The notes beneath the pieces are model-generated. The model was not told the origin of the DNA. It was given only the letters and a program-made list of their open reading frames with translations, and made no database searches. DNA of 64,000 nt from Caldilineaceae bacterium (lineage in GTDB: Bacteria; Chloroflexota; Anaerolineae; Caldilineales; Caldilineaceae): assembly GCA_022842065.1 (NCBI GenBank), contig JALHQH010000062.1:1-64000 (forward strand). Reading direction: 5' to 3'. Each line of letters opens with the position of its first letter. The first letter of the stretch is position 1. Below, piece after piece: positions 9,498-59,929 of the stretch. The translations under genes were made by a program, and so were the position numbers.

Positions 9498-12400
9498 ATG
9501 GATCCCGCGCTTTGGCTGAAAGAAGCTCGCCAACGGTTAGCTGGTTTTGCACAGACGATTGAGGATTGGGCACCCAGTACGCTTTATGGTGCCATCGCGG
9601 GGGCAACGTTGTTACCCCTTGCCGCCACAAGTGGTGATCCGAAAGAGATATTGGCTGGTCTGATTGGTGGGATTGGGGCGAACCTGATTGCCAACCAATT
9701 AGAAGCGTGGCAAGCACGCAGTGATGGCGATGCAACTGGGTTGGCCAAGCAGTTGACGGAAGCTGCCAAAACGGATGGTGAATTGCGGACGAGCCTGGAT
9801 GATCTCTTGCAGCGTATTGGTGCGATCGAAGTTGTCATTCGCGCAACAGCCGCAGACGAGCGGGAAACGATCGTTCAGCAACTCACGCGTCAATTTGCCA
9901 AAGTTGCAAGCGCGATTCATGTCGATCAGATTTATGTTGGCGGTGACTGGATTACAGTTGGTGATATCACTAACAGCAGCTATGTTGCGATTGGCCACGA
10001 TATCGTGATTGCCGGCCCCGGCGCGCATGTGGGGGATATTTATCATCAACATTTTCCCAATCCGCCGGACCCCAAGGCCCGCAACGCCCGCCGCCAAGCG
10101 TACCTCTATCATCTTTATAGCGAAGCCCGGCGTCTCGCCCTGGATGGCATTGACCGTGAAAGTGCCGGCGAGGGCAAAGAGGTGGCGATGCCGCTCGATG
10201 CGATTTACACCGTGCTCCTAACAACACAACTCGAAGACGAAGCGCGCACAGTGGCCGCAAAGGAGCTGATTGCATTCCGCCGGGGTGACCAAACACCCAG
10301 AAAACGCTCGGCGTTAGCACAACTCAATCGCCACAAGCGGTTGGTGCTCCTGGGCGCACCGGGCAGTGGCAAAAGCACCTTTGTCAACTTCGTGACCCTC
10401 TGTTTGGCTGGTGATGCATTGGGCGATCGTGACGTGAACCTGGCCTTGCTGACGGCACCACTGCCAGAGGATGAGGAAAAGCCGCCCCGGCAACCCTGGG
10501 ATCATGCTGGCCTGATTCCGGTGCGGGTGATTTTGCGTCACTTTGCCGCCCATGGTCTGCCGGGGCCAACGGCAAAGGCGACCGCCAACCACCTCTGGCG
10601 TTATATCTGTGACGAATTGAATGCCGCCGCTGTGGGGGATTTTGCCGACGAATTGCAGGCTGAGTTGCGCCAGGATGGGGGGATCATTCTGCTCGATGGC
10701 CTGGACGAAGTGCCGGATGCTGATCAACAGCGTGCCCAACTGAAGGCGGTGATTAACGCCTTTGCCGGGACCTATCGCAAGTGTCGGATTCTGATCACCA
10801 GCCGACCTTATGCCTATCATCAGGAAGATTGGACGCTTGACGGGTTTGTTGACACGATGTTAGCCCCCTTTTCTGACGCCCAGATTCGTCTTTTTGTTGA
10901 ACGGTGGTATCAGCAAGTGGCGGTTGCACGTAGTTACAAAACGGATGATGCGACCGGCCGTGCTGAACGGCTGAAACGGGCGATCTTTTCTAGCGAGCGG
11001 TTGCATGCCCTAGCTGAACAGCCCCTCTTATTGACCTTGATGGCCGGCCTTCATGCCTGGCATGGCAGTGATCTGCCGGACCGCCGGGAGGAGCTTTATA
11101 AAGAAGCCGTTGATCTCCTGTTAAATCGATGGGAACGTCAGCGCGTCGAGAATCGGCGCGATGGCACACAACTCCTGCAACCAAGCTTGCAAGAGTATCT
11201 CCAAGTGGGGCGTGAGGCGATTCTCGCTTTATTGGAAAAGCTGGCCTTTGACGTGCATGCCGGGCAACCGAGTTTGGAAGGGTGCGCGGATATCGAGCGG
11301 GATAAGTTGATCCTTGGTCTGGTCGAGATTAGTAAAAATAAAGCGGTGAATTCAGGCGAGTTAATCAACTATCTCAGCCAACGGGCCGGTTTATTGCTGC
11401 CCGAAGGTAATACGCTCTATCGTTTTCCCCATCGGACCTTTCAAGAGTATCTGGCGGCCTGTTATCTGACCAGTCCCCGTGTAAAATATCCCAAAGCGAT
11501 CGGCACGCTGTTGCGCGATGAACCGGAGCGGTGGCGCGAGATTGTGCTGTTGGCGGCCGCCAAGGCCGGTCGAGGCCATGTCTCCTTAGTTTGGTCACTG
11601 GTGAATACGATCTGTCGAGTCGTGCCAACTGCGCCAGTCTTTACCCATGCCGATGCGTGGGGTGCCCAACTAGGTGGGCAAGCGTTGCTTGAAGCGGTGC
11701 CGCTGGATGAATTGGATCCCACTGAGCAACAGAGCTTGCAGCGTGTCCGCGAAGGATTGCTTTATCTCATGCGTTCGGCTGACTTTGAACCACCGGAACG
11801 CGCCTTGGCCGGCCGCACCCTGGCCGGATTGGGCGATCCCCGTTTTAACAAAGCTGCCTGGTATCTCCCCAACGATCCCATGCTCGGCTTCGTTGAAATG
11901 GCTGCCGGCACTTTCACGATGGGTGAAGGCGAGGAAGCACACTTGGTCACCTTGCCCCACTTCTACATTGCGCGCTACCCGGTCACCGTTGCGCAGTTTC
12001 GTGCCTTTGTCGAGGCCACCGGCGAGCAGCCAAAGGATAGTGATAGTTTAGCTGATCCCGACAATCATCCGGTGCGCTGGGTAACTTGGCATGAGGCGAC
12101 TCGCTACTGCGCTTGGTTGACTAAAACGTTACGTACGTGGGTGCAGACCCCGTCGTCACTGGCCGAGAAATTGCACCAGGGTTGGCAGATCATGTTGCCC
12201 AGTGAAGCGGAGTGGGAACTGGCTGCACGCGGTGCTGGTGGGCGGCACTATCCGTGGGGCGACGAGGCGGTAGACCCCAACCGCGCCAACTATAAAGCAA
12301 CCGGCATTGGTACAATCAGTGCGGTCGGCTGTTTTCCTGCTGGTGCGACGCCCGAAGGGGTCGAAGAGTTGAGCGGTAATATCTACGAATGGACAAGAAG

Positions 12401-12620
12401 CCGCTATCTGGACTATCCTTATCCCAGCGATGATCAAGGGCGCAGTGAGCGGGAGCGGTTTGAGGCAGAGGATCGAGATCTGTTTGTGCTGCGCGGGGGA
12501 TATTACGGTAGCAGGGATCAGAACATGCGTGCGCCCGCCCGTGACAACCCTCGCGCGGTCGACTACTTCAACGTCGACGGCGGTTTTCGGTTGGTGTTGG
12601 GTGCTGCCCCCGGCGGTTGA
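9498..12620 (+). CDS. NACHT NTPase with C-terminal SUMF1 domain (DGR target)
   Basis: A 1040-residue STAND-type protein. Residues 25-70 carry a Gly/Ala-rich hydrophobic segment (GAIAGATLLPLAA, LIGGIGANLIANQ). Residues about 144-185 form a Gly/Val/Ile-rich beta repeat. The NACHT domain has Walker A GAPGSGKST (K292) and Walker B GGIILLDGLDE (D400, D403), with FQEYLAACY in the helical region near residue 650. The last about 160 residues are a SUMF1/formylglycine-enzyme-like domain: VEMAAGTFTMG, EAEWELAARG, YPWGDE, GNIYEW, LRGG, GFRLVL. Such proteins are known or proposed immune/conflict sensors: ligand recognition drives NTPase-dependent oligomerisation. Residues 1017-1028 coincide with the DGR variable repeat, so the SUMF1 fold probably serves as a ligand-binding scaffold and not an enzyme. 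The gene stands alone; a candidate promoter is at 9395. No dedicated effector such as a nuclease is recognisable, so the output is unknown; the N-terminal hydrophobic segment could act at the membrane. Confidence 0.9.
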   Translation: MDPALWLKEARQRLAGFAQTIEDWAPSTLYGAIAGATLLPLAATSGDPKEILAGLIGGIGANLIANQLEAWQARSDGDATGLAKQLTEAAKTDGELRTSLDDLLQRIGAIEVVIRATAADERETIVQQLTRQFAKVASAIHVDQIYVGGDWITVGDITNSSYVAIGHDIVIAGPGAHVGDIYHQHFPNPPDPKARNARRQAYLYHLYSEARRLALDGIDRESAGEGKEVAMPLDAIYTVLLTTQLEDEARTVAAKELIAFRRGDQTPRKRSALAQLNRHKRLVLLGAPGSGKSTFVNFVTLCLAGDALGDRDVNLALLTAPLPEDEEKPPRQPWDHAGLIPVRVILRHFAAHGLPGPTAKATANHLWRYICDELNAAAVGDFADELQAELRQDGGIILLDGLDEVPDADQQRAQLKAVINAFAGTYRKCRILITSRPYAYHQEDWTLDGFVDTMLAPFSDAQIRLFVERWYQQVAVARSYKTDDATGRAERLKRAIFSSERLHALAEQPLLLTLMAGLHAWHGSDLPDRREELYKEAVDLLLNRWERQRVENRRDGTQLLQPSLQEYLQVGREAILALLEKLAFDVHAGQPSLEGCADIERDKLILGLVEISKNKAVNSGELINYLSQRAGLLLPEGNTLYRFPHRTFQEYLAACYLTSPRVKYPKAIGTLLRDEPERWREIVLLAAAKAGRGHVSLVWSLVNTICRVVPTAPVFTHADAWGAQLGGQALLEAVPLDELDPTEQQSLQRVREGLLYLMRSADFEPPERALAGRTLAGLGDPRFNKAAWYLPNDPMLGFVEMAAGTFTMGEGEEAHLVTLPHFYIARYPVTVAQFRAFVEATGEQPKDSDSLADPDNHPVRWVTWHEATRYCAWLTKTLRTWVQTPSSLAEKLHQGWQIMLPSEAEWELAARGAGGRHYPWGDEAVDPNRANYKATGIGTISAVGCFPAGATPEGVEELSGNIYEWTRSRYLDYPYPSDDQGRSERERFEAEDRDLFVLRGGYYGSRDQNMRAPARDNPRAVDYFNVDGGFRLVLGAAPGG
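12527..12610 (+). other. DGR variable repeat (VR)
   Basis: The last 84 nt of the NACHT-SUMF1 gene before its terminal codons align without gaps to 12794-12877. There are 12 differences: VR 12546, 12549, 12550, 12553, 12559, 12560, 12561, 12564, 12574, 12576, 12579 and 12580. In ten of them the other copy has A. They change residues 1017-1019, 1021-1023 and 1026-1028, all between the ARD and GFRLVL motifs, the surface-loop position where DGR-diversified C-type-lectin folds vary. The invariant GC/T-rich 3' part (12581-12610) would be the initiation-of-mutagenic-homology segment. Confidence 0.9.
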
Positions 12621-12793
12621 TCTTCTGATCTCTGGTTTTTCTCTGATCTCTGTTTTGTAAGAAATGACCAGTAGCAGTCATGTCGCCTGCCGCGGCTCCC
12701 TTCTTTACCGCCGGAGGCGGGCGAAATATTTTTGCAATTCCAGTCTTTTCTTCAGCAATGAGGATTGGGCTGTTTTGCGGGGGCCGGTTGATA

Positions 12794-12877
12794 GCGTGCG
12801 CCCGCCCGTGACCACAATCACGCGGATAACAACTTCAACGACAACAACGGTTTTCGGTTGGTGTTGGGTGCTGCCCC
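12794..12877 (+). other. DGR template repeat (TR)
   Basis: A non-coding near-copy of 12527-12610 lying 174 nt past the NACHT stop codon. Read in the VR frame it encodes ARD-HNHADNNFNDNN-GFRLVLGA, with AAC/GAC/CAC codons exactly at the variable sites, the hallmark of DGR templates. It contains 17 adenines; 10 differ in the VR, against 2 of 67 non-adenine positions. Upstream (about 12766-12793) homology to the VR gene continues only weakly and lacks about 17 nt, so the 5' part of the template is trimmed or decayed. No reverse transcriptase or Avd gene follows. Confidence 0.9.
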
Positions 12878-13268
12878 ACGGCGTTCACCCCAGGTACCTC
12901 CGGGTAGTTGGGCCAGAAATCTGCGTCGGTTACGGCTTACGCAGCGCGGAATGATCGCCGGTGCGACCAGTTCCTGGCCGCGCCAATGGCCATCATCGTT
13001 ACCCTTACCGGGCAAGACGGCAAGGGGCGCGATGGTCTATCAAGGGCCGGGCAAATAGTAAACCGGGGCTGCACCCTACCCGAATCCGCTTTGCGGCCGG
13101 GCCGGTGCAGCCCCACCTATTTTTGCTCGTGACAACGCTCAGCGTCGTCATGCCCCCGGGACGCTCTGCGTCCGCCCAGTGAGCAGCGTGCTGCAAGCTG
13201 ACTCGATGCGGGGCATGGGCGCGCCCTCTCCAAATGGTGCGGATGGCACGTGAAACCAAAATTAGTGC
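12878..13268. other. Intergenic stretch after the TR: hairpins, no gene seen
   Basis: No credible coding frame, and in particular no reverse transcriptase or Avd remnant, was found here. It contains an 11-bp inverted repeat (13065-13075 with 13104-13114) and two short hairpins (13130-13150 with one mismatch, 13158-13173) built on ACGC-NNN-GCGT cores, like those at 25644 and 26908. Confidence 0.7.
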
Positions 13269-13322: not shown

Positions 13323-13661
13323 ATGGCGAGCGCGCAACAAGCCAAAACGGTTATCATCTATCGCGATTCGGCCGACAACGAACCTTTTACGAACTGGCTA
13401 AACAGCCTGCGTGATCGGACCACACGCCGGCGTATTCTGCAGCGATTGTTACGCGTGGAAAGTGGCCATTATGGCGACTATAAACCAGTCGGTGAAGGTG
13501 TTAATGAATTGCGCCTCTTTTTCGGCCCAGGTTATCGGATCTACTTTGGTGAAGATGGCGATACCCTTGTGATCTTGCTCTGTGGCGGCGACAAAGATAG
13601 CCAAAACCGCGATATCGAGCAAGCCCAGGGATATTGGCAGGAGTACAAAACCCATGTCTAA
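13323..13661 (+). CDS. RelE/HigB-like addiction-module toxin
   Basis: A 112-residue protein with the FTNWLNSLRDRTTRRRI, G.GVNELRLFFGPGYRIYF and LCGGDKDSQNRDI blocks of the phage-Gp49/HigB-like addiction-module killer family. Members are ribosome-dependent or free mRNA interferases neutralised by the adjacent antitoxin. The toxin comes first and overlaps the antitoxin start by 8 nt, the normal order for this sub-family. AGGGA precedes the ATG. The promoter-operator upstream supports an intact, regulated module next to the DGR/NACHT locus. Confidence 0.88.
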   Translation: MASAQQAKTVIIYRDSADNEPFTNWLNSLRDRTTRRRILQRLLRVESGHYGDYKPVGEGVNELRLFFGPGYRIYFGEDGDTLVILLCGGDKDSQNRDIEQAQGYWQEYKTHV

Positions 13662-13971
13662 CTACCGGACTCTTGAAGAAGTCAGCGTTGCCTATTTTAC
13701 TCAACATCCTGACGAGATCGAAGCCTTTCTCCGCGAGATCTTTGCCGATTATGCCGCTGATGGTGATGCTGCGGCCTTACTCTCTGCACTGCGCATCATT
13801 GCCCGTGCGAAAGGGATTTCTACCCTGGCTGAAGAAGTGGGCATGACCCGGCAAGGGTTGCAAAAGGCCTTGTCCGCCAATGGCAACCCCCGTTTGGATA
13901 ATATCAACGCGATCATGCGTGCCCTGGGTTATCAACTGCTGCCCCAGCCGCTGACGACTTCGACCGTCTAG
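13654..13971 (+). CDS. Addiction-module antitoxin, XRE/HTH type
   Basis: A 105-residue partner of the toxin. The ATG at 13654 overlaps the toxin stop (ATGTCTAA), which suggests translational coupling. Residues about 52-95 form a Cro/C1-like helix-turn-helix (ISTLAEEVGMTRQGLQKALS) followed by NPRLDNINAIMRALGYQL, characteristic of the addiction-module antidote that pairs with this toxin. The DNA-binding half presumably binds the 18-bp palindrome at 13270-13287. Confidence 0.9.
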   Translation: MSNYRTLEEVSVAYFTQHPDEIEAFLREIFADYAADGDAAALLSALRIIARAKGISTLAEEVGMTRQGLQKALSANGNPRLDNINAIMRALGYQLLPQPLTTSTV

Positions 13972-34014: not shown

Positions 34015-34106
34015 CCGCTGACCGCGTCTGTTGCGTAACATGAATTACTTTAGGCAGCGCATCAGTATAGAAGGAAGCGTTACTGCCTCAAGATTAACCA
34101 TTGATA

Positions 34107-34171
34107 ATCAGTAGACCGCAACGCTCTCTGGCTAAGCCTGTCGAAGCCAGAGAGCGTTGCGGTCTACTGAT
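34107..34171. repeat. Perfect inverted repeat (27-bp arms) upstream of hsdR
   Basis: 34107-34133 and 34145-34171 are exact complements around an 11-nt loop, ending 34 nt before the hsdR ATG. In the transcript it could hinder translation initiation or protect the 5' end. Confidence 0.95.
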
Positions 34172-34205
34172 AGTTGTTTTGCTTACCCTCGGAAAAAGAG
34201 TGCCC

Positions 34206-36680
34206 ATGGACAAACAAGTGTTGACCGAACAAGAGATCCGCACGCGCTATATTACCCCGGCGATCCAAGCGGCGGGCTGGCAGCCCAACCAGATCCGCGA
34301 GGAGCTTTACCTGACCGACGGGCGGATCATTGTGCGCGGGCGCATGGCGGTGCGCAGTCAACAGCGTAAGCGCGCCGATTATATCCTCTATCACAAGCCC
34401 AATGTGCCGTTGGCGATTGTCGAGGCGAAAGATAACAACCACACGATAAGCGCGGGGATGGACCAGGCGCTCGACTATGCCACCTTGCTGGATGTGCCCT
34501 TTGTCTACACCTCCAACGGCGACGGCTTTATGGAGCATGACCGCACCGCGGCCAGCGGCCCAGTGGAACGGGCCTTGACGCTCGCTGAATTCCCTAGCCC
34601 GGCGCAATTGTGGGAACGCTATGTGCAACAGGGTCAATTGCAACCGGCCGTGGCCGACGCCGTGGCGGAGGATTACTTCTTTGACCGCAGTGGCCGCGCC
34701 CCGCGCTACTATCAAATAGTGGCGATCAACCGCGCGGTTAAGGCGGTTGCCGAGGGCCAAAAGCGGATTTTGCTCGTGATGGCGACCGGCACCGGCAAAA
34801 CCTACACTGCCTTTCAGATCATCTGGCGACTCTGGCGCACGCGCCAGGTCAAACGGGTGCTCTTTCTGGTCGACCGCAACATTCTGGCCGACCAGACCAT
34901 GACCAACGACTTTCGCCACTTTGGCGACAAGATGACCAAAATCACCGGCCGCCAGATCGACAAGTCCTTTGAGATCTATCTGGCGCTCTACCAGGGCATC
35001 TCCGGCACGGAAGAGTGGCAGAATATCTACCGCGACTTTTCGCCCGACTTTTTTGACCTGATTGTGGTCGATGAATGTCATCGGGGCAGCGCAGCCGCGG
35101 ACTCGGCCTGGCGCGAGGTGCTCGAATATTTTACCAGCGCGGCCCAACTGGGGCTGACCGCGACGCCCAAAGAGACGGCCACGGTCTCGAACAGTGATTA
35201 CTTTGGCGACCCCCTCTACACCTACTCGCTCAAACAGGGGATTGCCGATGGCTTTCTCGCCCCCTACAAGGTGATTCGGATTGACCTCGACAAAGATGTG
35301 GATGGCTGGCAACCGCGGCGTGATGAGTTGGACCGCTATGGGGTGCCGATCCCGGAAGGGCTCTACAAAGCGCGTGACTTTGACCGCACCCTGGTGATCG
35401 ACGAACGCACCAAGGTGGTGGCCTGGCGCATCACGGAGTATCTCAAACAGAGTGGTCGCTATCAAAAGACGATTATCTTCTGTGAGGATATTGACCACGC
35501 CGAACGCATGCGCCACGCCATTGCCAACATGAATGGCGACCTGGTCCATGAAAACTGGCGCTATGTGGTGCGCATCACCGGCGACAACGCGGTGGGCAAG
35601 GCGGAACTGGATAACTTTATTGCGCCGGAGGAAACCTATCCGGTCATCGCCACCACCTCCAAGCTGATGACCACGGGGGTCGATGCCCAGACCTGCAAGT
35701 TAATTGTGCTCGACCGCACGATCAACTCGATGACCGAGTTCAAGCAGATCATTGGCCGCGGCACGCGCATCAACGAGGATCATGGCAAGCAGTGGTTTGC
35801 GATTATGGATTTCCGCCATGTGACCAAACTCTTCCAAGATCCCGACTTTGACGGCGACCCGGTGCAGATCTACGTGCCGCCACCTGGTGGTGGTGATACC
35901 GCCCCACCAGATGATCTCGCTCTCCCTGATGATACCGGGGCTGATGATACCGGGGCTGATGATACCGGGGCTGATGATACCGGGGCTGATGATACCGGGG
36001 CTGATGATGCCGGGGCTGAGGGTGCCGGCGAGGCGGGCGAAAATGCGGGTGAGAACGCGGGCGGTGGTATAATCGACAAGCAACCGTCCGGCCGCCAGAA
36101 ATATTATGTCGATGGGGTGGCGGTCACCATTCTGGCCGAACGGGTGCAATATTATGACAAGGACGGCAAACTCAAGACGCTCTCTTTTGTCGAGTTTAGC
36201 CGCGAAAATCTGCGCAAACAGTACGTTTCGCTCGACCGCTTCTTGACCAAGTGGCAAAGTGCCGAACGCAAAGCCGCCATCTTGGAAGAGTTGCTCGAAC
36301 AAGGCTTTCTGCTTGATGAACTGATGGCCCAAGTGCAGGATCAACAGCTTGATCCCTTTGACCTGATCTGCTATGTCGCCTTTGACCGCAAGCCGCTGAG
36401 TCGCAACGAGCGCGCCCGCAGCGCCCAAAAGAGCGCCGCCTTCGATGCCTTGAGCGCCACCGCGCGCAAAGTGATCGACGCGCTGCTCGACAAATATGCC
36501 AGCGAGGGGGTCGCTTCGCTCGAAGAGGCGCAGGATGCCGGCAAAGTTGCCCAGATCCTGCAACTGGCCCCCTTTAACGGGATCGGCACCCCGGTCGAAA
36601 TTGTACGTGCCTTTGGTGGTCGCCAAAAATTTCTCGACGCCGTGCGTAACCTGGAAGAGGAAGTGTACCGGGCGGCGTAG
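34206..36680 (+). CDS. hsdR: Type I restriction endonuclease subunit R
   Basis: 824 residues. The N-terminal HSDR_N nuclease has D58, E73 and K75 (ADYILYHK, IVEAKD). A SF2 translocase follows with motif I ATGTGKT (K198), motif II DECH (289-292), TATPKE and motif VI QIIGRGTRIN, then an EcoEI-R-like C-terminal domain that docks HsdM/HsdS. The complex cuts DNA lacking the cognate methylation after ATP-driven translocation. The ATG at 34206 starts MDKQVLTEQEIRTRYI, typical for the family. Residues about 575-605 are a 15-bp-repeat-encoded acidic DDTGA linker between translocase and C-terminal domain. First gene of an hsdR-hsdM-hsdS operon. Confidence 0.93.
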   Translation: MDKQVLTEQEIRTRYITPAIQAAGWQPNQIREELYLTDGRIIVRGRMAVRSQQRKRADYILYHKPNVPLAIVEAKDNNHTISAGMDQALDYATLLDVPFVYTSNGDGFMEHDRTAASGPVERALTLAEFPSPAQLWERYVQQGQLQPAVADAVAEDYFFDRSGRAPRYYQIVAINRAVKAVAEGQKRILLVMATGTGKTYTAFQIIWRLWRTRQVKRVLFLVDRNILADQTMTNDFRHFGDKMTKITGRQIDKSFEIYLALYQGISGTEEWQNIYRDFSPDFFDLIVVDECHRGSAAADSAWREVLEYFTSAAQLGLTATPKETATVSNSDYFGDPLYTYSLKQGIADGFLAPYKVIRIDLDKDVDGWQPRRDELDRYGVPIPEGLYKARDFDRTLVIDERTKVVAWRITEYLKQSGRYQKTIIFCEDIDHAERMRHAIANMNGDLVHENWRYVVRITGDNAVGKAELDNFIAPEETYPVIATTSKLMTTGVDAQTCKLIVLDRTINSMTEFKQIIGRGTRINEDHGKQWFAIMDFRHVTKLFQDPDFDGDPVQIYVPPPGGGDTAPPDDLALPDDTGADDTGADDTGADDTGADDTGADDAGAEGAGEAGENAGENAGGGIIDKQPSGRQKYYVDGVAVTILAERVQYYDKDGKLKTLSFVEFSRENLRKQYVSLDRFLTKWQSAERKAAILEELLEQGFLLDELMAQVQDQQLDPFDLICYVAFDRKPLSRNERARSAQKSAAFDALSATARKVIDALLDKYASEGVASLEEAQDAGKVAQILQLAPFNGIGTPVEIVRAFGGRQKFLDAVRNLEEEVYRAA
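35928..36017. repeat. 15-bp tandem repeat in hsdR (six units)
   Basis: Five identical 15-nt units from 35928 and a sixth with one change (36003-36017), encoding (DDTGA)n. Slippage would alter linker length by five residues without loss of frame. Confidence 0.95.
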
Positions 36681-36704
36681 AATCGCCCCGCCATGAATGG
36701 ACGG

Positions 36705-36780
36705 GGCTACGAAACAACGCCCGCTGAAGCGGGCTTTTTCGGCGGTACAAGCCCGCTTCAGCGGGCGTTGTTTCGTAGCC
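36705..36780. repeat. Perfect inverted repeat (32-bp arms) between hsdR and hsdM
   Basis: 36705-36736 and 36749-36780 are exact complements around 12 nt. It could terminate or attenuate read-through from hsdR into hsdM, uncoupling nuclease from methylase. There is also an internal GCCCGCTGAAGCGGGC hairpin in each arm. Confidence 0.95.
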
Positions 36781-36853
36781 GCGCCCCAGGGGCACCCGCT
36801 TTAGCCCCCGGCGGTCCCGGTTTACCGAAACATTGAACCTAGAAAGCACCTGC

Positions 36854-38326
36854 ATGTCCATCACCACCACCATCAAATCGATCCAAGACATTATGCGCCA
36901 GGATGCGGGGGTCGATGGCGATGCCCAGCGTATCTCGCAACTGGTCTGGCTGCTCTTCCTCAAGATCTTTGACGACAAAGAGCAGGAATACGAACTCGAC
37001 CCCACCTACCATTCGCCGGTGCCCGAGCGGCTGCGGTGGCGTGCCTGGGCCGCGAATGATGAGGGGCTGACCGGCGATGAGTTGCTCGCCTTTATCAACA
37101 ACGACCTCTTTCCCAGGCTCAAGGAGTTGCAGGTGGGGCCGGGCGATGACCCGCGCGGGGCGATTGTCCAGGAAGTCTTTACCGACGCCTATAACTACAT
37201 GAAGTCGGGCACCTTGATCCGCCAGGTGATCAACAAGCTCAACCAGATCGACTTCAACGCCATGCAGGATCGCCACCTCTTCAACGACCTCTATGAGAAG
37301 ATCCTGCGCGATCTGCAAAACGCGGGCAATGCCGGCGAATATTATACGCCGCGCGCGGTCACCCAATTTATGGTCGATATGACCAACCCGCAACTGGGCG
37401 GCGTGGTGCTTGATCCGGCCTGTGGCACTGGTGGCTTTCTCGTCTGCGCCCTCGAACATCTGCGGGCGCAGGTGACGACGACCGCCGAGCGCGAACGGCT
37501 GCACCAGGCGATCCGCGGGGTGGAGAAGAAACCGCTGCCCCATCTGCTCGCCATCACCAACTTGATCCTGCACGATGTCGAAGTGCCCCACATTGAGCGG
37601 GACAACGCCCTGGCGCGCCAACCCTACCGCGCCTACAGTGAGCGCGACCGCGTCGACTACATCCTCACCAATCCGCCCTTTGGGGGCATGGAAGAGCCGG
37701 GGATTGAGAGCAACTTTCCCAGCCAATTTCAGACCAAAGAGACCGCCGACCTCTTTCTGGCCTTGATTGTCCATCTGCTGCGGGATGGCGGCAAGGGCGC
37801 GATTGTGCTGCCCGATGGCTCGCTCTTTGGCGAAGGGGTGAAGACGCGGCTCAAGGAGCACCTGTTGGAACGATGCAACCTGCACACGATTGTGCGCCTG
37901 CCCAACGGCGTCTTTGCGCCCTATACCGACATCAACACCAACCTGCTCTTTTTTACCAAGGGCGAACCGACGCAGGATGTCTGGTACTTTGAACATCGGT
38001 TGCCCGAGGGCTACAAAAAATATACCAAGACCCGCCCGATTCGCATCGAGGAGTTTGACCAAGAAAAAGCGTGGTGGCACCACCGCGTGGAGACTGACTA
38101 CGCCTGGCGCGTGCCCATCGACGCCATCAAAGCGCGCAACTACAACCTGGACATCAAAAACCCCAGCACCAGCGACCCCACCCACGGCGACCCGTTGACC
38201 CTGCTGGCCGCCTATCGTGATCTCCAAGCCGAAATTGCCGCCGACCGTGCCGCACTCAAGGCCGAATTGCTGGCCGCGCTGGGCGCCAGCGCTACTGTGT
38301 CCACCTCGATCGGCGGTGGCCAGTGA
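36854..38326 (+). CDS. hsdM: Type I DNA methyltransferase subunit M
   Basis: 490 residues. An N-terminal HsdM_N helical domain (about 5-150) is followed by an N6-adenine methyltransferase with motif I DPACGTGGF (187-195) and motif IV NPPF (273-276), and the GEYYTPRAV loop ahead of it. With HsdS it methylates adenines in the recognition site using S-adenosylmethionine. The ATG at 36854 begins SITTTIKSIQDIMRQDAG, as in homologues; the frame open to 36833 adds a poor extension. The last bases overlap the hsdS GTG start (GTGA). Confidence 0.95.
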   Translation: MSITTTIKSIQDIMRQDAGVDGDAQRISQLVWLLFLKIFDDKEQEYELDPTYHSPVPERLRWRAWAANDEGLTGDELLAFINNDLFPRLKELQVGPGDDPRGAIVQEVFTDAYNYMKSGTLIRQVINKLNQIDFNAMQDRHLFNDLYEKILRDLQNAGNAGEYYTPRAVTQFMVDMTNPQLGGVVLDPACGTGGFLVCALEHLRAQVTTTAERERLHQAIRGVEKKPLPHLLAITNLILHDVEVPHIERDNALARQPYRAYSERDRVDYILTNPPFGGMEEPGIESNFPSQFQTKETADLFLALIVHLLRDGGKGAIVLPDGSLFGEGVKTRLKEHLLERCNLHTIVRLPNGVFAPYTDINTNLLFFTKGEPTQDVWYFEHRLPEGYKKYTKTRPIRIEEFDQEKAWWHHRVETDYAWRVPIDAIKARNYNLDIKNPSTSDPTHGDPLTLLAAYRDLQAEIAADRAALKAELLAALGASATVSTSIGGGQ

Positions 38327-39168
38327 CGGTCACCTTGGAACTGCTCTTCCCCCACCTCGACGAATTAATTCAGACTCCCGCCGATGTGCAGCGTCTCAAC
38401 GAAGCGATCCTCCAGTTGGCCGTCCAGGGCAAACTCGTCCCGCAAGATCCGCAGGATGAGCCGGCAGGGGAGTTGTTGAAGCGGATTGCGGTGGAGAAGG
38501 AACGATTGGTGGCGGAAGGAAAGATCGGAAACGAAAAGCCATTGCCACCAATTGCTGAGGATGAGATGCCGTTTGCATTGCCCTATGGATGGGAGTGGGC
38601 AAGATTAGAATCTTTAACGAATTTCATTGATTACCGTGGGAAAACCCCTGAAAAGATTGAATCGGGACTACCCCTGATAACTGCAAAAAATGTGCGCATG
38701 GGGTACTTAAGCAGAGAACCAAAGGAATATGTTGATCCTAAAATTTATGATGGCTGGATGACACGAGGTATACCGCGAAAAGGTGATGTTTTGTTCACAA
38801 CAGAAGCACCGTTAGGGAACGTTGCATTACTTGATACCGATGAGCCTTTGGTGCTAGCCCAGCGCATTATTACGTTACAACCATATTGGGTGAATTTCAA
38901 CTCAGCATATTTGAAGTACGCACTGATGAGTGCTCCAATTCGAGAGCTTATTGAAAGCAAGGCCACGGGCACAACAGCGCAAGGAATCAAAGCTAGCCGA
39001 TTGAAATTGATTCTTATCCCTATCCCACCTCTGGCCGAACAAAAACGCATCGTCGCCAAAGTGGACGAACTCCTCGCCCGCTGCGCCGCGCTCGAAAGTA
39101 AGCTGGGCCAGGCGCAGGGCGCGGGGCGTCAACTCACCGCGGCGGTGTTGCAAGGGGTGGTGGGGTAG
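38323..39168 (+). CDS. hsdS: Half-size type I specificity subunit S
   Basis: 281 residues, about two thirds of the usual 400-450. An N-terminal segment (LNEAILQLAVQGKLVPQD, about 25-45) precedes one target-recognition domain (about 75-225: YGWEWARLESLTNFIDYRGKTP to IPIPPLAEQKRIVAKV) and one conserved coiled-coil helix (225-275). A full-length HsdS has two target domains; a one-domain protein may dimerise, giving a palindromic bipartite site. It starts at GTG 38323 inside the hsdM stop. Its last 123 nt occur again at 40474-40596, on the far side of a repeat array and transposase, so the second half may have been lost or moved when those elements arrived. The TRD has lower GC than flanking sequence, as usual for exchanged TRDs. 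Confidence 0.9.
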   Translation: MTVTLELLFPHLDELIQTPADVQRLNEAILQLAVQGKLVPQDPQDEPAGELLKRIAVEKERLVAEGKIGNEKPLPPIAEDEMPFALPYGWEWARLESLTNFIDYRGKTPEKIESGLPLITAKNVRMGYLSREPKEYVDPKIYDGWMTRGIPRKGDVLFTTEAPLGNVALLDTDEPLVLAQRIITLQPYWVNFNSAYLKYALMSAPIRELIESKATGTTAQGIKASRLKLILIPIPPLAEQKRIVAKVDELLARCAALESKLGQAQGAGRQLTAAVLQGVVG

Positions 39169-42203: not shown

Positions 42204-44132
42204 TCAAATGTGGGATACTGCCACTCGAAATCCTCTGTCCGAGTCCCAACCTTCGATAGATCCCTTATTATCACGGTAGGCACAGCGAAAGTCGCTGTTC
42301 TCTACATTGAACCATGAGCTACCCCGTAATACCCGTAAATCTGTTCCTCTAAGATAACCCTTGGTCCATTCATCTTCTTGAACATCATAGGGATATGATT
42401 TACCCCATTTGGTAGCGCACCACTCCCATACATTTCCAGCCATATCTAGCGCACCATAATAGCTGGCGCCCTCGGGGTAAGCGTCCACTGGTGTGGTGTC
42501 TTTCGGGCCACTTTTTTGATTATTACAAAGCTTTGTCTCCCAATGATCACCCCAGGGATAGATGCGTCCGTCTGGACCTCTGGCTGCCTTTTCCCACTCA
42601 GCCTCTGTGGGCAGGCGATATGGCTTTTCAGTAATTTGGGCCAGCCACTGGCAAAAGGCTACTGCATCCAGCCAAGTAACCCAAACCACTGGGTTGTCTT
42701 CTTTACCTTCTGGTATCTTGTCCATTTTCCAATGGTCCGGCCGGCGATGACCAGTAGCTTGGACAAAAGCCTCGTACTGGATGTTGGTCACGGGTGTCTT
42801 GGCAATGTAGTAATCAGGTAAATAAAGCGAATGTTGAGGCTGCTCATCATCCTTGGTGTCTTTGTCAACTTCGGGGTCGCTGCCCATCCGAAATGGACCG
42901 GCCGCGATGAGCACCGTCTCCGGCTCAAAGGGTTTGCTTGGGACATCTGGCTGGAGGGGCGTGACATTTGTTGTCGTCACATTGGGCAATGCCAAGATGC
43001 GGTTGTCCGCCGAACGGCTGAAAAAGACGGGCGTACCCCATTCTAAGAGACTACCCAGCGTGTAAATCGCCTTGCGCGCCTCGGTCAGCGCGGCGTCAAC
43101 GCTCACGCCTTTGGCAAGGGTGCCGTAAAACGTCTGGCTAAGGCGCATGGCGGCAGCATCCGTGATGGGAAACTGCATGGCGATCACGGCGGGCACGCCC
43201 TGGCGCACCAGATACTGGGCGGTGCCGGAGAAAGCCGCTGCGTTGTCTGTGCGCGCCCCTTCGCAGGCGTTGAGAAACAGCAGCCGCAACGCTTGATGAC
43301 CGTGCAACAGCACGCCGAGCACATCGGCTGCAACCTTGTCAGCGCGACCCGCCGTGTCCTCGCACACTAGGCCATTGCCGCCGGCGTCGAACCAGCCGTG
43401 ACCGATGAAGTGCAGGACATGCACATCATCGGCACCCAAGCGCTGCCGGAGGCTGTCGACGGTGACCGCGGACAGCTGGTCGAGCACCACCTGGTCGGCG
43501 CCAAGCCCGCTGATAGCCTCTTGCAGCAACGCCCACTCGCGGCCCACATCCAGTCGCGGGACGATGTCCACCGGATCGGAGAGGACGGCCAGAACGCGCA
43601 GAGGCGGCGCGACCGGCAGCACCGCCTCCGGCTCCGGCAGATCCAGATAGCGTACGATCGAGAGCTCATCCACCAGCGCGAGGAATTGGTCGCGGCTCCG
43701 GTCGAAGAGATATTCCCAGGGCAGCGCGGCCAACGCGGGCGCGCCGGTCAGCCGCAGCCGAATGCGCAGCCTGGCCTCGGCGCGCAGCGCAGCGTCCAGG
43801 CTGCGCCGCAGGCAGACGACAATCTCACCACGCATGACAGCCTCGAAGAGCTGCGTACCCAACTTCTTTGGTTCCAACTCGCCGGGCATTACCGTTGGCA
43901 GCCCTGCGTTCGCCTTGTCACCCACCGGTCGAAACTGGCGAACGGCCCCGCCCAGCATGTCTAGCGGCTGCTGCAGCTCATGCTCGCTAAAGGGCAGGAC
44001 GATCAAAGCCTCAGCCTGCCCAACAGGCGAAAAGATCACCTGCGCCAGATAGCCTTGCGCGGCGGGGACAATCTGAAGATCGAGGTTTAGATAGCTCTGC
44101 ATGTAGCCGGTCAGCTCACTTTCATTTGTCAA
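42204..44132 (-). CDS. CHAT protease-like protein with C-terminal SUMF1 domain
   Basis: 642 residues. A CHAT (caspase-HetF-associated with TPRs) domain spans about 130-375 with the His-Cys dyad H245 (HFIGHGWFD) and C290 (LFLNACEG). A SUMF1/FGE-like domain spans about 400-642 (VLIAAGPFRMGSD, YYIAKTPVTN, RLPTEAEWEKAARG, YPWGDHW, AGNVWEWC, LRGSSWFN, GFRVAVSHI). CHAT proteins are caspase-like proteases in conflict and cell-death systems. The end, LRGSSW..to..RCAYR..GFRV, is where DGR variable repeats of such proteins lie, so this may be a remote DGR target; no template for it is in the window. The start is uncertain: TTG at 44132 gives the full frame, an ATG at 44102 is an alternative. It follows two minus-strand genes of unknown function, 83 nt apart. 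Confidence 0.88.
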   Translation of the reverse strand: MTNESELTGYMQSYLNLDLQIVPAAQGYLAQVIFSPVGQAEALIVLPFSEHELQQPLDMLGGAVRQFRPVGDKANAGLPTVMPGELEPKKLGTQLFEAVMRGEIVVCLRRSLDAALRAEARLRIRLRLTGAPALAALPWEYLFDRSRDQFLALVDELSIVRYLDLPEPEAVLPVAPPLRVLAVLSDPVDIVPRLDVGREWALLQEAISGLGADQVVLDQLSAVTVDSLRQRLGADDVHVLHFIGHGWFDAGGNGLVCEDTAGRADKVAADVLGVLLHGHQALRLLFLNACEGARTDNAAAFSGTAQYLVRQGVPAVIAMQFPITDAAAMRLSQTFYGTLAKGVSVDAALTEARKAIYTLGSLLEWGTPVFFSRSADNRILALPNVTTTNVTPLQPDVPSKPFEPETVLIAAGPFRMGSDPEVDKDTKDDEQPQHSLYLPDYYIAKTPVTNIQYEAFVQATGHRRPDHWKMDKIPEGKEDNPVVWVTWLDAVAFCQWLAQITEKPYRLPTEAEWEKAARGPDGRIYPWGDHWETKLCNNQKSGPKDTTPVDAYPEGASYYGALDMAGNVWEWCATKWGKSYPYDVQEDEWTKGYLRGTDLRVLRGSSWFNVENSDFRCAYRDNKGSIEGWDSDRGFRVAVSHI

Positions 44133-45974: not shown

Positions 45975-47357
45975 TCAGGTTGGAATATAGGTGACTAGCA
46001 CCTCATTACCTTGTACTTGTAAGCTTTGCACAGAGCCAGGTAGCATTCCCTCAAGCGTTTTATCTAGTTTCGACATGAAATCGTCGAAGTTCTCGTTTAT
46101 GGCCTCGAAACCGCACACGGTTTCATGGACGGGTCCCGTAGGATTTTTCCGCTTAAAATCCAGGCTACACGGCCAACTGCCGGCCTCTACCCGGAACCAG
46201 GTTACCTGGGTCTTCAGCCGATCTCCCTGAATATATAGTCGCAGGTTTGCCGTCACTTTCGCGTCGCGCTTTTTTGCTGTGAACTTGGTTTCTACAAGCA
46301 CTTCATTGTCCCCTGCCCCCTCCAATGTCACTCTTATGTTGGCGCGGTCATGATCCGCTTGACTTGTCATCCGCCTCACTAGGTTCTTAATATCATCTTC
46401 AGTCAACTGTACGGTAACAACTGCCGGGGGCCTTACAGATACAGTTGCTTCGTAATCCTGAGTTCCAGTAGCAGTTACAACGCGCAAAGTATAGGTCTGA
46501 GTTTCCTTCGGGCAAGCAGTAGTGCTACCGCGTTCAACGACACGTTCTCCATCGAGGGATACAGCCTGTACGTTCTTGACATCCCACCTGAGGGTTGTGC
46601 ATTCACCGCTCTGAATTGTGTAATTGTCTGCAGCAAACTGTACATCAACTGCGCCAACTGATACAATCACAACGTAGCTAGCTGTTTCAGAAGCGGTTAC
46701 GACAGTCAAACCATAGAAATGAGTTTTCATCGGGCAAATAGTCTTGCTACCGTGTCCGTCGACATCTTCTCCATCGAGGGATACAGATTTTACGTTCTCA
46801 ACATCCCACCTGAGGGTCGTGCATTCACCCTCTACAACAGTAGTATCGTCGGCGTCAAACTTAACTTGCTCAGGAAGATCTGTTGACGCAGGGGGCGTGC
46901 CATCAACGGGCAGACTACTCAGTGGCCCAGAACAAGATACATAACGACTTGATGCATTGACCCAACCCTCCTCATTGCTCCCCTGAACCTGGACCTTAAT
47001 CCAGTCAGTATCTTCATGACGAGATAAGGGCACAAGAACTGTGCCTCGGTAAACACTGCGGATTGGAGGGGAATATTCCGTACCTGGTCCAAAACGAAGA
47101 TTGAGTGCGCCGGTCGCCACTGTACACAGAAACAGCGGCTGATCTCCGTCAAACCCAGATGCTGATGGTCCATTGACTGCAGGAGATACATCCTCCACCG
47201 TGGCAGATGGAGCGGACGAATCTCCTGCTGCTGACTGAGAATCGGGTCCAGTTTCAGGCGATTCAGCAGCAGCACAGGCAACAGTGAGCAAAACTATTAA
47301 CAACACGTAACATGTAAGATTTCGATACTTGAGATACATAGTTGTTCGCTCTGTCAT
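45975..47357 (-). CDS. Lipoprotein with SH3b and tandem Ig-like repeats
   Basis: 460 residues. A lipoprotein-type signal peptide (LLIVLLTVACAA) leads to a Ser/Pro linker, an SH3b domain (about 75-145: CTVATGALNLRFGPGTEYSP, GWVNASSRYV), two homologous beta repeats (about 165-235 and 240-310; each with GECTTLRWDV, V.SVSLDGE, TICP/TACP, TVVTA), and a C-terminal alpha/beta domain of unknown type (about 315-460). AAGGGGG lies 5 nt before the ATG at 47357. It is an envelope protein, perhaps binding cell wall or glycans. First gene of the run that ends with CHAT-SUMF1. Confidence 0.75.
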   Translation of the reverse strand: MTERTTMYLKYRNLTCYVLLIVLLTVACAAAESPETGPDSQSAAGDSSAPSATVEDVSPAVNGPSASGFDGDQPLFLCTVATGALNLRFGPGTEYSPPIRSVYRGTVLVPLSRHEDTDWIKVQVQGSNEEGWVNASSRYVSCSGPLSSLPVDGTPPASTDLPEQVKFDADDTTVVEGECTTLRWDVENVKSVSLDGEDVDGHGSKTICPMKTHFYGLTVVTASETASYVVIVSVGAVDVQFAADNYTIQSGECTTLRWDVKNVQAVSLDGERVVERGSTTACPKETQTYTLRVVTATGTQDYEATVSVRPPAVVTVQLTEDDIKNLVRRMTSQADHDRANIRVTLEGAGDNEVLVETKFTAKKRDAKVTANLRLYIQGDRLKTQVTWFRVEAGSWPCSLDFKRKNPTGPVHETVCGFEAINENFDDFMSKLDKTLEGMLPGSVQSLQVQGNEVLVTYIPT

Positions 47358-47384
47358 ATTTGCCCCCTTGTAACGTTAGACAAC

Positions 47385-47666
47385 AAGCGGAAAATAGCCA
47401 GGATCAGCGCTGGTTTGCTGGTGTGTAAACGGGTTTCGTCGTGAACAAATGACTGCCTCCTGTTGAGCGGTCCAACGCGACGGTACGTAGGAGGACTGTG
47501 TGCGTATGCATACAGGGGAGGAGCGTAAAGTGGTTAACTACTTGTAAGTATACAGTATATTAGACAGTCCAGCACCCCCCAGGTGGTGGAACAATTTCCT
47601 AGTCAGCTGGATAGCAAAGTGGCACAGCCTTGACCCTGACTAACAGTGGGCGTGCTGTGCCACTTT
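47385..47666. repeat. Long dispersed repeat, copy 1 (peptidase-locus flank)
   Basis: The sequence recurs at 53462-53820 and about 59349-59663: CGGAAAATAGCCAGGAT start, GTAAACGGGTTTCG, CGGTCCAACGC.ACGGTACG and CCCAGGTGGT.GAACAA blocks in the same order. Copy 1 lacks about 80 nt present in the other two. It ends in a 13-bp hairpin (47616-47628 with 47654-47666). The three copies bracket two peptidase units and mark their tandem duplication. Confidence 0.88.
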
Positions 47667-47675
47667 ACGCTCGAA

Positions 47676-47725
47676 GTTCAGCGCTTAGTGGCGGGTCTGC
47701 CGAGCCCTGCCACTAAGCGCTGAAC
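47676..47725. terminator. Hairpin (17-bp perfect arms) beyond the M36 remnant
   Basis: 47676-47692 pairs with 47709-47725; loop 16 nt. It lies 25 nt past the stop of the minus-strand remnant and could end transcription on either strand. No T-run is seen. Confidence 0.55.
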
Positions 47726-47749
47726 ATACCACGCTCTTGTCTGCGATCT

Positions 47750-48585
47750 TTACCTTTCTACCCACGGCAAGTAGGTTTTGTCCATCAGCTCGCCGGCCGT
47801 TTTTACCAGACCAAAGCGCACGGAGCCATCGTTGGTCGTCACGGCTGCGCTTTGACCCCTGTGTGTGCCCACCGAGGCGGGCAGGTCGCCGGCAAAGGTG
47901 ATGAGGCTGGTGTCGGCTTGCCCGGCGGGGGGCACCTGGACGGTAAAGGTGATGTTGGCCAGCGGCCCATCGGGCAGGGTGATAAAGGGCAAGCTGAAAT
48001 CGGCAAGCGCAATCTGAATGCGCTGATTGTCAACGACCATGACACTAGCGGCAACGCCCTCCGGCAAGGCTAAAGCTGATGGCGTCGGGAATGCCGTTGC
48101 CGTCGCGGTCAGTGGGGTCAAGCTGTAGAACGGCCGGATCAAAGGTGATGGCAAAGACCGCCGCGGCCGTCGCATTGCCATTTGCCATAAAGTTTACCGG
48201 CACGGTCACCAGGTTGCCCGGCTGCACGCGCAGATCATCGGGAATGGTCAGCGTTGCCGGGGCGGCTGACGTACTGCTGGCGATGCTGTCGCCGCGATGA
48301 CAGGCGTCTTGGCCCTGGAAGATCGTCAACACGGTACAGAGGATGTCACCGGCGTCAATCTGTTGATCCAGATTCGCGTCACACCCTTGTGGGCTGCCGA
48401 CAAAGGTGCCACCGGGGGCAGCGTGGCCAATGCTCAACGCTAGGGCCAGCGCGTGGAGGGTAACGGGGATGTCAAGGTTGGACTCATCCCAATCATTGCT
48501 GCGCACCCGCAGGATGGCGCGGTATTCGCCATCGACAATTTCTGGCGCACCCGCATCGATGGTGACAGCGATGGTCTGTACGCGT
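47750..48585 (-). pseudogene. 3' remnant of a second M36 peptidase gene
   Basis: Homologous to the 3' end of the M36 gene (to KTYLPWVER and beyond the stop). Relative to the intact gene it lacks everything between LSIG(H/R)A and PGGTF(V/A)GSP, that is the first cohesin-like module and the first dockerin half. A one-base insertion near 48070 shifts the frame between the dockerin/cohesin part (48045-48506) and the C-terminal part (47750-48181). Homology begins abruptly at about 48585. Confidence 0.9.
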
Positions 48586-48628
48586 CAACAGTGATCTTCC
48601 AGGTTAGATGAGTGTCAAGTTTTTCCCC

Positions 48629-48650
48629 GTGGGGGATTTTTTTGCTGCGC
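48629..48650 (-). terminator. Short hairpin with T-run
   Basis: TCCCC..GGGGA stem with T-runs on both sides (TTTTTCCCC and GGGGATTTTTTT); it is placed 47 nt downstream of the small secreted frame at 48697-48843. Confidence 0.45.
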
Positions 48651-48696
48651 TCAAAACTGCCACTGCAGTTGGGGACGGGATCGCTGTTGTTGTCGT

Positions 48697-48843
48697 CTAC
48701 GTATCACGGACATTCGTGCCGGTATCGTTGCCATTCGTGATGAGCGGCAAGTAGATCTGAGCTGAGACGATTTGCAACGTTGCCAGCGCGGCCAATACCA
48801 GCAGCGATAGAGCGATCAAGGGTCTTCTATAGATGGAAAACAT
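48697..48843 (-). CDS. Small secreted peptide with YLPLI motif (48 aa; possibly truncated gene)
   Basis: The frame starts MFSIYRRPLIALSLLVLAAL, a clear signal peptide, continues QIVSAQIYLPLITNG and stops at TAG. GAGGAGGTG lies at good spacing before the ATG (48843), so it is very likely translated. The mature part is only about 20 residues and carries the YLPLI motif seen as a C-terminal tail on the large secreted peptidases here. It may be a real short exported peptide or the 5' stub of a broken secreted protein. Confidence 0.5.
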   Translation of the reverse strand: MFSIYRRPLIALSLLVLAALATLQIVSAQIYLPLITNGNDTGTNVRDT

Positions 48844-49006
48844 ATTACACCTCCTCGCTTTCCTAAATAGCACCCAAAAAACTCAGGATTGTCTTGTTCT
48901 TGGCATTGTACTGCCGCTATACCCACGAGCAGCACAAGAAAGTACCATTATCCCCTGTAAAACGTGTACCTTCTTGGCGCTCGTTGGTATACAGCCACAA
49001 TCGGTA

Positions 49007-52918: not shown

Positions 52919-52944
52919 AAAGCGTTCTCCTTTACGGTAGAATA

Positions 52945-53181
52945 ACCGAGCCTTGTGGTCTGCTGCTGGAGATAATTTAGGGCAATCTCCACGGCGTCGC
53001 CACTGGTAGGGCCAGTCAAGAAACCACTTGCCCCTTGGTCAGGCGGTGGGGCAGGTTGGGCCGTGGCCGTTTCAGCGACAACTTCCGCCCCCCTTGCCCA
53101 CAAGTGGCGCAGGGTGGCTTGCCCAAAGCTGATCAACAAGAGAAATAAGCCAATCAAGAGCAATACAAATTGCCTTCGCAT
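52945..53181 (-). pseudogene. 5' remnant of a second M36 peptidase gene
   Basis: Encodes the first about 79 residues of the M36 protein almost unchanged (MRRQFVLLLIGLFLLLISFG to LNYLQQQTTRLG) including the ribosome site GGGGAGG, then runs into unrelated sequence upstream of the S8 gene and ends in frame at 52885. It matches 58950-59186. A secreted stub with a signal peptide could still be made. Confidence 0.92.
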
Positions 53182-53323
53182 AAGGCCTCCCCTCAGATGG
53201 AATAATGGCGCAATTCAGCGGCACACTGCAAGGCCAGCCTACTCCTCCAAAAAGACCCCCGCCTGTTCATATCCATAGGCCGTCAGCTTTGAAACAGCAA
53301 AATGTAGGCAGCAGCTAAGCTAG

Positions 53324-53461
53324 TTTCTGTTGCGAAAACGCTTGATCACCGCTAAGGCCACGAAGGCCGCAAAGTTTCGCCAAGGATTTTCTCTGGCGAG
53401 TCTTTGCGTTCTTTGCGCTCTTGGCGGTAGAAATCGCGTTTCGCAACAAGAACTAAACTAG
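53324..53461. mobile_element. MITE-like insertion (138 bp) with empty-site comparison
   Basis: The sequence GCAGCTAAGCTAG-CCAACAAGC at 59341-59363 is uninterrupted; at 53311-53470 the same junction is split by 138 bp. The insert is flanked by TAAGCTAG (53316-53323) and TAAACTAG (53454-53461), a probable 8-bp target duplication with one change. Its ends are imperfect inverted repeats (TTTCTGTTGCGAAAACGC at left, GCGTTTCGCAACAAGAAC at right) and the interior is a long imperfect hairpin of CGCAAAG/CTTTGCG units. It has no coding capacity. Confidence 0.8.
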
Positions 53462-53820
53462 CCAACAAGCGGAAAATAGCCAGGATCAGCGCTGGTTTGA
53501 TGGTGCGTAAACGGGTTTCGCAGCGAAAAAATTACAGCCTCCTTCGGCTAGGTTGGCGACCATCCGCGCCGCAAAGGCCGCGCGCCAGCCAAGCTTTGCG
53601 AATAGACGCCCGTGCGTTGAGCGGTCCAACGCAACGGTACGCAGGAGGACTATGTGCGCGTGCACACAGAGGAGGAGCGTAAAGTGGTTAACTATTTGTT
53701 AGTATATGATATAATGGACGGTCCAGCACCCCCCAGGTGGTGGAACAATTTCCTAGTCAGTTGGACAGTAAAGTGGCACAGCCCCAACCCTGCCTGACAG
53801 CGGGTGTGTTGTGCCACTTT
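53462..53820. repeat. Long dispersed repeat, copy 2
   Basis: Collinear with copy 3 (about 59354-59663) over its whole length and with copy 1. Its right end is an inverted repeat (about 53768-53782 with 53807-53821, AGTAAAGTGGCACA and complement). It lies between the 5' remnant of the broken M36 gene and the 3' end of the intact one, as expected at a tandem-duplication joint. Confidence 0.88.
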
Positions 53821-53829
53821 ACTAGAGCT

Positions 53830-53932
53830 TATACCGATTTGTTTGTACACCTGTGAGAGGATGACAGGATGACCGGATGAATAATCGCTGTCATCTTGTC
53901 ATCCTCTCAGACGACAGAATTAAATCGGTATA
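53830..53932. terminator. Nested inverted repeats downstream of the M36 gene
   Basis: Outer arms 53830-53840 with 53922-53932 (11 bp); inner arms 53854-53873 with 53890-53909 (19 of 20 bp). It lies 25 nt beyond the M36 stop and is a likely transcript end, although without a T-run. Absent from the corresponding place next to the M36 remnant, where 47676-47725 sits instead. Confidence 0.65.
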
Positions 53933-53957
53933 GGCTCCACGCTCTTGTCTGCGATCG

Positions 53958-59186: not shown

Positions 59187-59290
59187 AAGGCCTCCCCTCA
59201 GATGGAATAATGGCGCAATTCAGTTGTTTCGGTTGTGGTAAAGGTCTGTCATGGGAGAATCGTCACTCCGTGACTAAATGCGCGCGGCGG

Positions 59291-59663: not shown

Positions 59664-59929
59664 GGTACTTTGGATAGTGTAGCACTGGGGCTAGCAACCT
59701 GATCCCATTACCTGGCTGCCTGTGCGGCCACTGCTAACGCCACCGTCGTCACTGCCGGCAATGCTATCGTCTGCTGATCGGCGAGTAGCGCCCCGGCGCA
59801 GCTGTCGTGGCGCAGTGGGTGAGTGGGTCGTGTTGATTGGGGGTCGCTGAAGTTGTTAGTTTGTGATACACTTTTTGTAAAACTGTGCGCGCAACTAACA
59901 ACCGCAATCACCCCCTTGCCCAGAACGAA

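Follow-up and report, generated by a model that had tools for sequence, protein, structure and literature searches.

In the accessible text of Dore et al. (2024, PMC10907252), diversity-generating retroelements (DGRs) 3 and 6 of Thiohalocapsa PB-PSB1, which belong to clade 5, are described as having NACHT/nSTAND targets that end in an FGE/CLec domain. The same text reports that some Thiohalocapsa loci lack a working reverse transcriptase (RT) and that trans activity best accounts for some of the targets, and it names filamentous chloroflexi among the DGR hosts. Remote variable proteins located away from the RT are described for cyanobacterial DGRs (Vallota-Eastman et al. 2020, PMC7517822), and partial DGRs consisting of a target and a variable repeat (VR) only are described for nanoarchaea (Paul et al. 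2015, PMC4372165). A link between FGE-type domains, DGRs, and the conflict systems of multicellular bacteria is drawn in PMC7159879. The large DGR survey in PMC8144416, according to its accessible text, took as its starting point an RT gene no more than 1 kb from a repeat, and it states that remote targets would go undetected.

The locus considered here lies in the window, i.e., the whole analyzed stretch of Caldilineaceae DNA (64 kb), and contains the following features:

9498–12620, plus strand: target gene (1040 aa) with a helical N-terminal part, a NACHT domain, and a C-terminal FGE/SUMF1 domain
10341–10910, plus strand: NACHT domain, residues 282–471 (Pfam NACHT, 2.5e-10)
11889–12596, plus strand: FGE/SUMF1 domain, residues 798–1033 (Pfam FGE-sulfatase, 7.1e-39)
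12527–12610, plus strand: VR, 84 nt, at the 3′ end of the NACHT-SUMF1 gene
12543–12581, plus strand: variable core, residues 1016–1028, between predicted strands 1014–1016 and 1028–1030
12794–12877, plus strand: template repeat (TR); its 17 adenines include 10 that differ in the VR
12878–13060, plus strand: TR 3′ flank, related to the TR flank of Chlorohelix and a candidate counterpart of the BPP-1 spacer
12913–12944, plus strand: flank core, CCAGAAAT followed by a possible hairpin with the loop CGGTTACGGCTT, folding no better than shuffles

The locus shares with Thiohalocapsa DGRs 3 and 6, as far as these are described in the accessible text, a STAND NTPase target, a VR in the FGE/C-type-lectin end, and adenine-directed changes; it differs from the Thiohalocapsa DGRs in that the TR and the target stand together, no RT was found in 64 kb, and the host belongs to Chloroflexota. 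As in the cyanobacterial remote variable proteins, the target is away from an RT and has a C-terminal lectin-fold domain, whereas the TR of the cyanobacterial remote targets lies in a DGR elsewhere and that of the window adjoins its target. The incomplete locus and the adenine-directed change are shared with the nanoarchaeal partial DGRs, which, however, have no TR described in the accessible text and whose targets are unrelated.

The VR and the TR, which starts 183 bases past the VR end, were aligned without gaps over 84 bases and differed at 12 positions, at 10 of which the TR had A. Thus, 10 of the 17 TR adenines were changed, compared with two of the 67 other bases (p = 3.9e-7, hypergeometric), the latter being C>A at 12546 and T>C at 12560, so that non-A identity was 65/67. 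All 10 adenine changes fell on the first or second codon position of the NACHT-SUMF1 gene, and the sole third-position change in the VR was at a non-adenine site. Nine residues were changed (1017–1019, 1021–1023, and 1026–1028), flanked by RAPARD and GFRLVL. The TR codons could yield approximately 1.2e10 possible proteins, with zero stops reachable by adenine change. The counts of changed bases and of altered residues agree with those of the first-pass annotation, which had read the two copies as the VR/TR pair of a DGR. That reading is supported by the adenine bias, which was unique among the window's 23 imperfect self-repeat pairs spanning 45 nt or more with six or more mismatches: the fraction of mismatches at A (or T, on the other strand) in one copy was 0.83 for the VR/TR pair and at most 0.50 for the other 22. 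A near-identical TR and a VR at a gene 3′ end, as in complete DGRs, were thus present, and the share of mismatches at TR adenines (10/12) lay above the thresholds given in the accessible texts of PMC8144416 (≥75%) and PMC7517822 (>80%). Self-comparison and the adenine-bias scan revealed no second TR in the 64-kb window. A cruciform-like inverted repeat 3′ of the VR was not found at the set limits, and the terminator scan gave a 7-pair stem with G-T pairs at 12595–12615 (two such sites versus 1.2 expected).

The same kind of scan recovered TR/VR pairs in all seven loci with an intact RT that were examined (Nostoc, Fischerella, Microcystis FD4, Anabaena 90, Acaryochloris, Ideonella, and Prosthecochloris). 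In 13 control pairs, 0.81–1.00 of the changes fell on template A and 0–3.1% of the non-A sites were changed; the corresponding values for the window pair were 0.83 and 3.0%. Since these lie within the control range, the last transfer from TR to VR seems at least as recent as at loci where an enzyme is retained. VR1 of Anabaena 90 was omitted from the control comparison because of a gapped alignment (13/13 mismatches at A), and under the loose scan threshold pairs of Microcystis FD4 and Acaryochloris also passed with TR and VR swapped, an assignment that had fewer mismatches at adenines. No adenine-biased pair was found in the scanned stretches of Microcystis NIES-2481, Thiodictyon, and Herpetosiphon. 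On plasmid p1 of M. aeruginosa NIES-2481 (36425–37350), a DGR RT with one in-frame stop was observed, followed by a TR-like stretch that matches the window TR.

The architecture of the target gene corresponds to that of the clade 5D STAND NTPase targets in the accessible text of PMC10907252 (central NTPase and C-terminal CLec/FGE domain with the VR), as well as to the plan of bacterial NACHT (NLR-like) anti-phage proteins (N-terminal part, central NACHT, and C-terminal sensor). The first-pass annotation had assigned the target to the C-type-lectin fold, and this holds: in addition to the Pfam match, the family profile matched FGEs of solved structure as well as TvpA, a solved variable protein of a DGR (2y3c, E = 3.5e-11), so that the ligand-binding fold of the target domains of complete DGRs is present. 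The predicted structure model of the target had a mean pLDDT of 78.8 and a pTM of 0.63, with a pLDDT of 76–78 in the blocks around the variable core. A Foldseek search with this model returned NOD2, NLRC4, and NLRP3 with modest target-normalised TM-scores (0.22–0.47), and the formylglycine-generating-enzyme-like entries shown had scores of 0.55–0.66. PADLOC gave no family match for the target gene at E = 1e-3. The gene is predicted to encode a bacterial immune sensor.

Two other SUMF1- or repeat-related regions of the window were observed. A CHAT-SUMF1 gene (caspase-like protease and FGE domain; 42204–44132, minus strand), with a SAVED_CHAT-like PADLOC match (6e-16), lies near a type I restriction-modification operon (34101–39168); it was rejected as a second target of the TR, since neither a TR or VR match nor a repeat with adenine bias was found there. 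At 46400–59700, near-identical repeats as long as 695 bases (94%) surround M36 metalloprotease and S8 protease genes with cohesin- or PKD-like domains.

The closest organism-named relative of the target was found in a Caldilineaceae MAG (59% identity). Two further relatives, P0002 and P0003, were 91% and 74% identical to the target, respectively. P0002 shared 524 of 530 residues over positions 261–790, around the NACHT domain, and 172 of 219 residues in the SUMF1 domain ahead of the VR; in the VR core, the identity to the target was 3/13 in P0002 and 3/13 in P0003. Both varied mostly at sites with template adenines, and 11 of the 13 core residues in P0002 and 12 of the 13 in P0003 were reachable from the window TR by adenine changes alone; variation without adenine bias, which had been named beforehand as an observation against a DGR, was thus not seen in them. 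At residue 1017, the TR has CAC, whereas the residues of the three VRs (N, S, and D) fit AAC and not CAC; F1024L of P0002 is not yielded by the window TR, and residues 1034, 1036, and 1037 of P0003, outside the core, differ beyond the reach of the TR. Codon 1017 and these unreachable residues suggest that the TR copy has changed since or that another copy served. A protein search with residues 996–1040 found only the query, P0002, and P0003, and no relative came up when genome contigs and viral contigs were searched with the target protein or its alignment. Viral contigs contained three matches to a degenerate TR/VR pattern, which look like chance occurrences in phage genes; the window TR and VR matched these three contigs only by short pieces in one of them (L006, best E = 0.002), and a distant DNA search of phages found none.

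No significant match to a DGR RT was found in the six frames of the 64-kb window. A tblastn search with eight DGR RTs gave best E-values of 0.009 and 0.014; the first match (54 residues, 22% identity) lay within the S8 protease gene, and the second (108 residues, 27% identity) opposite the HsdM gene. An RT HMM on the six frames gave a best E-value of 1.8 and a cyanobacteria-only RT HMM 2.5, the latter having found the held-out Prosthecochloris and Ideonella RTs with E-values from 9.8e-76 to 6.6e-99. An Avd HMM (seven sequences) on the 64-kb window gave a best E-value of 0.12, and Pfam identified zero RTs in 35 of the 107 window ORFs. The RT and Avd of a complete DGR are thus not seen in the window, and because of the absence of an RT the locus was filed as the template-target half of a DGR and not as a complete one. 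Among the best 120 of 8000 matches to the Nostoc RT, the organism-named ones were cyanobacterial, with no Chloroflexota RT. Approximately 445 bases past the TR, where an RT might be expected, Gp49/HigB-like and HI1420/HigA-like genes were located (13323–13971, plus strand).

The same layout was found by tblastn on the complete plasmid unnamed3 (NZ_CP128403, 54,957 bp) of Candidatus Chlorohelix allophototropha (Chloroflexota), which carries a NACHT-SUMF1 gene with a VR and a TR 343 bases further, start to start. In this pair, 18 of the 23 differences were at template A and zero at VR A (p = 4.5e-9). Two further SUMF1 genes had ends that matched this TR: one on unnamed3, 19 kb off (15 of 21 changes at A), and one on plasmid unnamed1 (19 of 25). 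SUMF1 gene ends that fit this single TR with an adenine bias thus number at least three, spread over both plasmids. Two weaker matches (23/36 at A, and 16/25 at A with four VR adenines) may represent paralogous domains and were left out of the bias comparison; a pair on plasmid 1 with 5/7 changes at A was taken as chance. Neither Pfam RVT_1 nor the Nostoc RT query detected an RT on plasmids unnamed1 and unnamed3. Plasmid unnamed2 encodes one RVT_1 protein of 561 residues, which, from its motifs, we take to be a group II intron maturase. The window and NZ_CP128403 therefore share a NACHT-SUMF1 gene with a VR, a TR behind it, the adenine bias, a related flank, and the absence of a detected RT on the replicon or stretch searched. 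They differ in that the Chlorohelix protein has an N-terminus that reads as TIR-like, the TR is 118 nt long versus 84 nt in the window, one TR matches several SUMF1 gene ends on two plasmids, and non-A change is greater (5.7–7.2% in three pairs, above the 3.0% of the window), so that the Chlorohelix pairs could date back further or have had a different TR as their source.

The kinship of the two TR flanks was assessed by scoring the window flank (183 bases) against plasmids unnamed1 and unnamed3, which were cut on both strands into a total of 14,330 overlapping segments. The top match was the Chlorohelix TR flank, with a score of 56 and a modest lead over the next unrelated segment (50); reciprocally, among 4,256 window segments, the Chlorohelix flank matched the window TR flank best (56, next unrelated 47). 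This score was reached by 1 of 1000 shuffles, and the kinship rests on two loci. A single copy of the core CCAGAAAT-N8-10-TTACGG was present in the window and one more in the two plasmids combined; it begins 36 bases past the end of the TR in the window and 52 bases past it in Chlorohelix. Eight leading bases and 10 of 12 loop bases were kept between the two flanks. The six-base hairpin arms differed yet were mostly complementary, with five of six pairs changed on both sides and one mismatch in Chlorohelix; the probability of random arms being equally good in both flanks was 1.4e-4 before allowing for site choice, and in the shuffle control, with the best of the slid versions taken, 19 of 500 did as well. 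The hairpin core folded no better than shuffles (179/200 and 193/200 shuffles at least as good), and the 286-base TR region folded slightly better (z = −1.73; 11/200). Comparison of the window flank with eight TR flanks of RT-bearing loci, cyanobacterial and other, revealed no clear likeness (best Acaryochloris, 6/200 shuffles as high); for the Chlorohelix flank against the Nostoc flank, 1/200 shuffles scored as high. A search with the flank pattern gave four matches; on visual inspection none seemed to lie behind a TR, and tblastn detected no RT at any of them. Rfam gave no match in the window at the gathering score. The TR 3′ flanks of six cyanobacterial DGR loci, five of them with an intact RT, had a mean column identity of 70% and possibly represent an RNA family. 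In BPP-1, according to the accessible text of PMC12875486, the spacer that follows the TR on its 3′ side serves to recruit RT-Avd and supplies an adenine that primes cDNA synthesis; because the BPP-1 spacer recruits RT-Avd, a kept flank fits use by an enzyme acting in trans.

Taken together, these data make it probable that the window holds the template-target half of a DGR whose RT and Avd act in trans from elsewhere in the genome, supply in trans being likely because searches of the window turned up neither. In this scheme, a transcript would cover the TR together with its 3′ flank, and a common DGR RT-Avd complex would bind the flank and reverse-transcribe the TR, inserting random bases across from its adenines; the resulting cDNA would then take the place of the VR. 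Judging by the domain plan and the proposal in PMC10907252, the rewritten lectin-fold loop would form the ligand-binding surface of the sensor, and it is predicted that, on ligand binding, the NACHT NTPase would be switched and the N-terminal part set off. Present activity of the TR/VR system, like each of these steps, is inferred. The trans reading is supported as follows: the adenine bias lies in the range of RT-bearing loci; the VR core varies while the NACHT part of P0002 stays 524/530 identical; neither RT nor Avd turned up in the six frames of the window, with a held-out RT control that worked; a complete RT-less Chlorohelix plasmid has the same layout, bias, and a related flank; and trans activity at RT-less Thiohalocapsa loci and recruitment of RT-Avd by the BPP-1 spacer are described in the accessible texts of PMC10907252 and PMC12875486, respectively. 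It is weakened by the imperfect template (codon 1017 and F1024L), by the small lead of the flank match (56 versus 50) at two loci with a hairpin no better than shuffles, and by the non-A change of Chlorohelix and the lack of an inverted repeat behind the VR.

An unlikely but serious alternative is that a complete DGR once stood here, that its RT and Avd were recently lost, and that the VR is now frozen. Such a loss explains their absence from the window equally well, and RT loss and RT interruption in Thiohalocapsa are described in the accessible text of PMC10907252; the toxin-antitoxin-like genes behind the TR and the TR base at codon 1017, which fits none of the three VRs, are also consistent with it. 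However, a dead locus leaves a kept TR 3′ flank in two enzyme-less loci unexplained, and the non-A identity of TR and VR is as high as at RT-bearing loci. It is improbable that another TR beside an RT elsewhere, in a live DGR, serves the VR and that 12794–12877 is an unused duplicate: no second TR was found in the 64-kb window, TR and VR are identical at 65 of the 67 non-A sites, and the flank 3′ of the TR has been retained, although such a source would account for codon 1017 and for codon 1021 (GAT in the TR, GTC in the VR), and in the accessible text of PMC10907252 the VRs of Thiohalocapsa DGRs 4 and 5 fit a distant TR better. Tandem duplications of gene ends are known to occur, but a plain partial duplication followed by drift, with no retroelement, is very improbable and was rejected on the adenine bias, since the 17 adenines in one copy account for 10 of the 12 changes, each of these 10 at a first or second codon position, the other 22 self-repeats of the window have no such bias, and the variation in P0002 and P0003 already points to template adenines.

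In relation to what has been described, NACHT sensors diversified by DGRs and targets supplied in trans have been reported before. The novelty, within the reach of our searches, is a template-target unit in Chloroflexota that lacks the enzyme and has a related flank; these searches, which covered the main texts of open PMC papers, found no report of such units in Chloroflexota. On the trans reading, we tentatively suggest that Chloroflexota may possess a two-part hypermutation system, in which enzyme-less template-target modules, some of them plasmid-borne, carry, 3′ of each TR, a shared RNA handle of CCAGAAAT and a hairpin with the loop CGRTTACGGYTT, and one RT-Avd encoded elsewhere serves all of them in trans. 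New sensors would then join by acquiring a tagged template, and repeat surveys that begin with the RT gene would miss all such modules; RT-less template-target units are in any case invisible to the survey in PMC8144416 because, according to its accessible text, it starts from the RT gene. If an RT in trans serves such units, bacterial self-diversifying immune-like receptors would outnumber current counts, and one enzyme could equip many NLR-like sensors, somewhat as a single recombinase acts on many vertebrate receptor loci. The TR 3′ flank, being related at the two loci, gives a concrete and testable starting point for asking which feature designates an RNA as a template.
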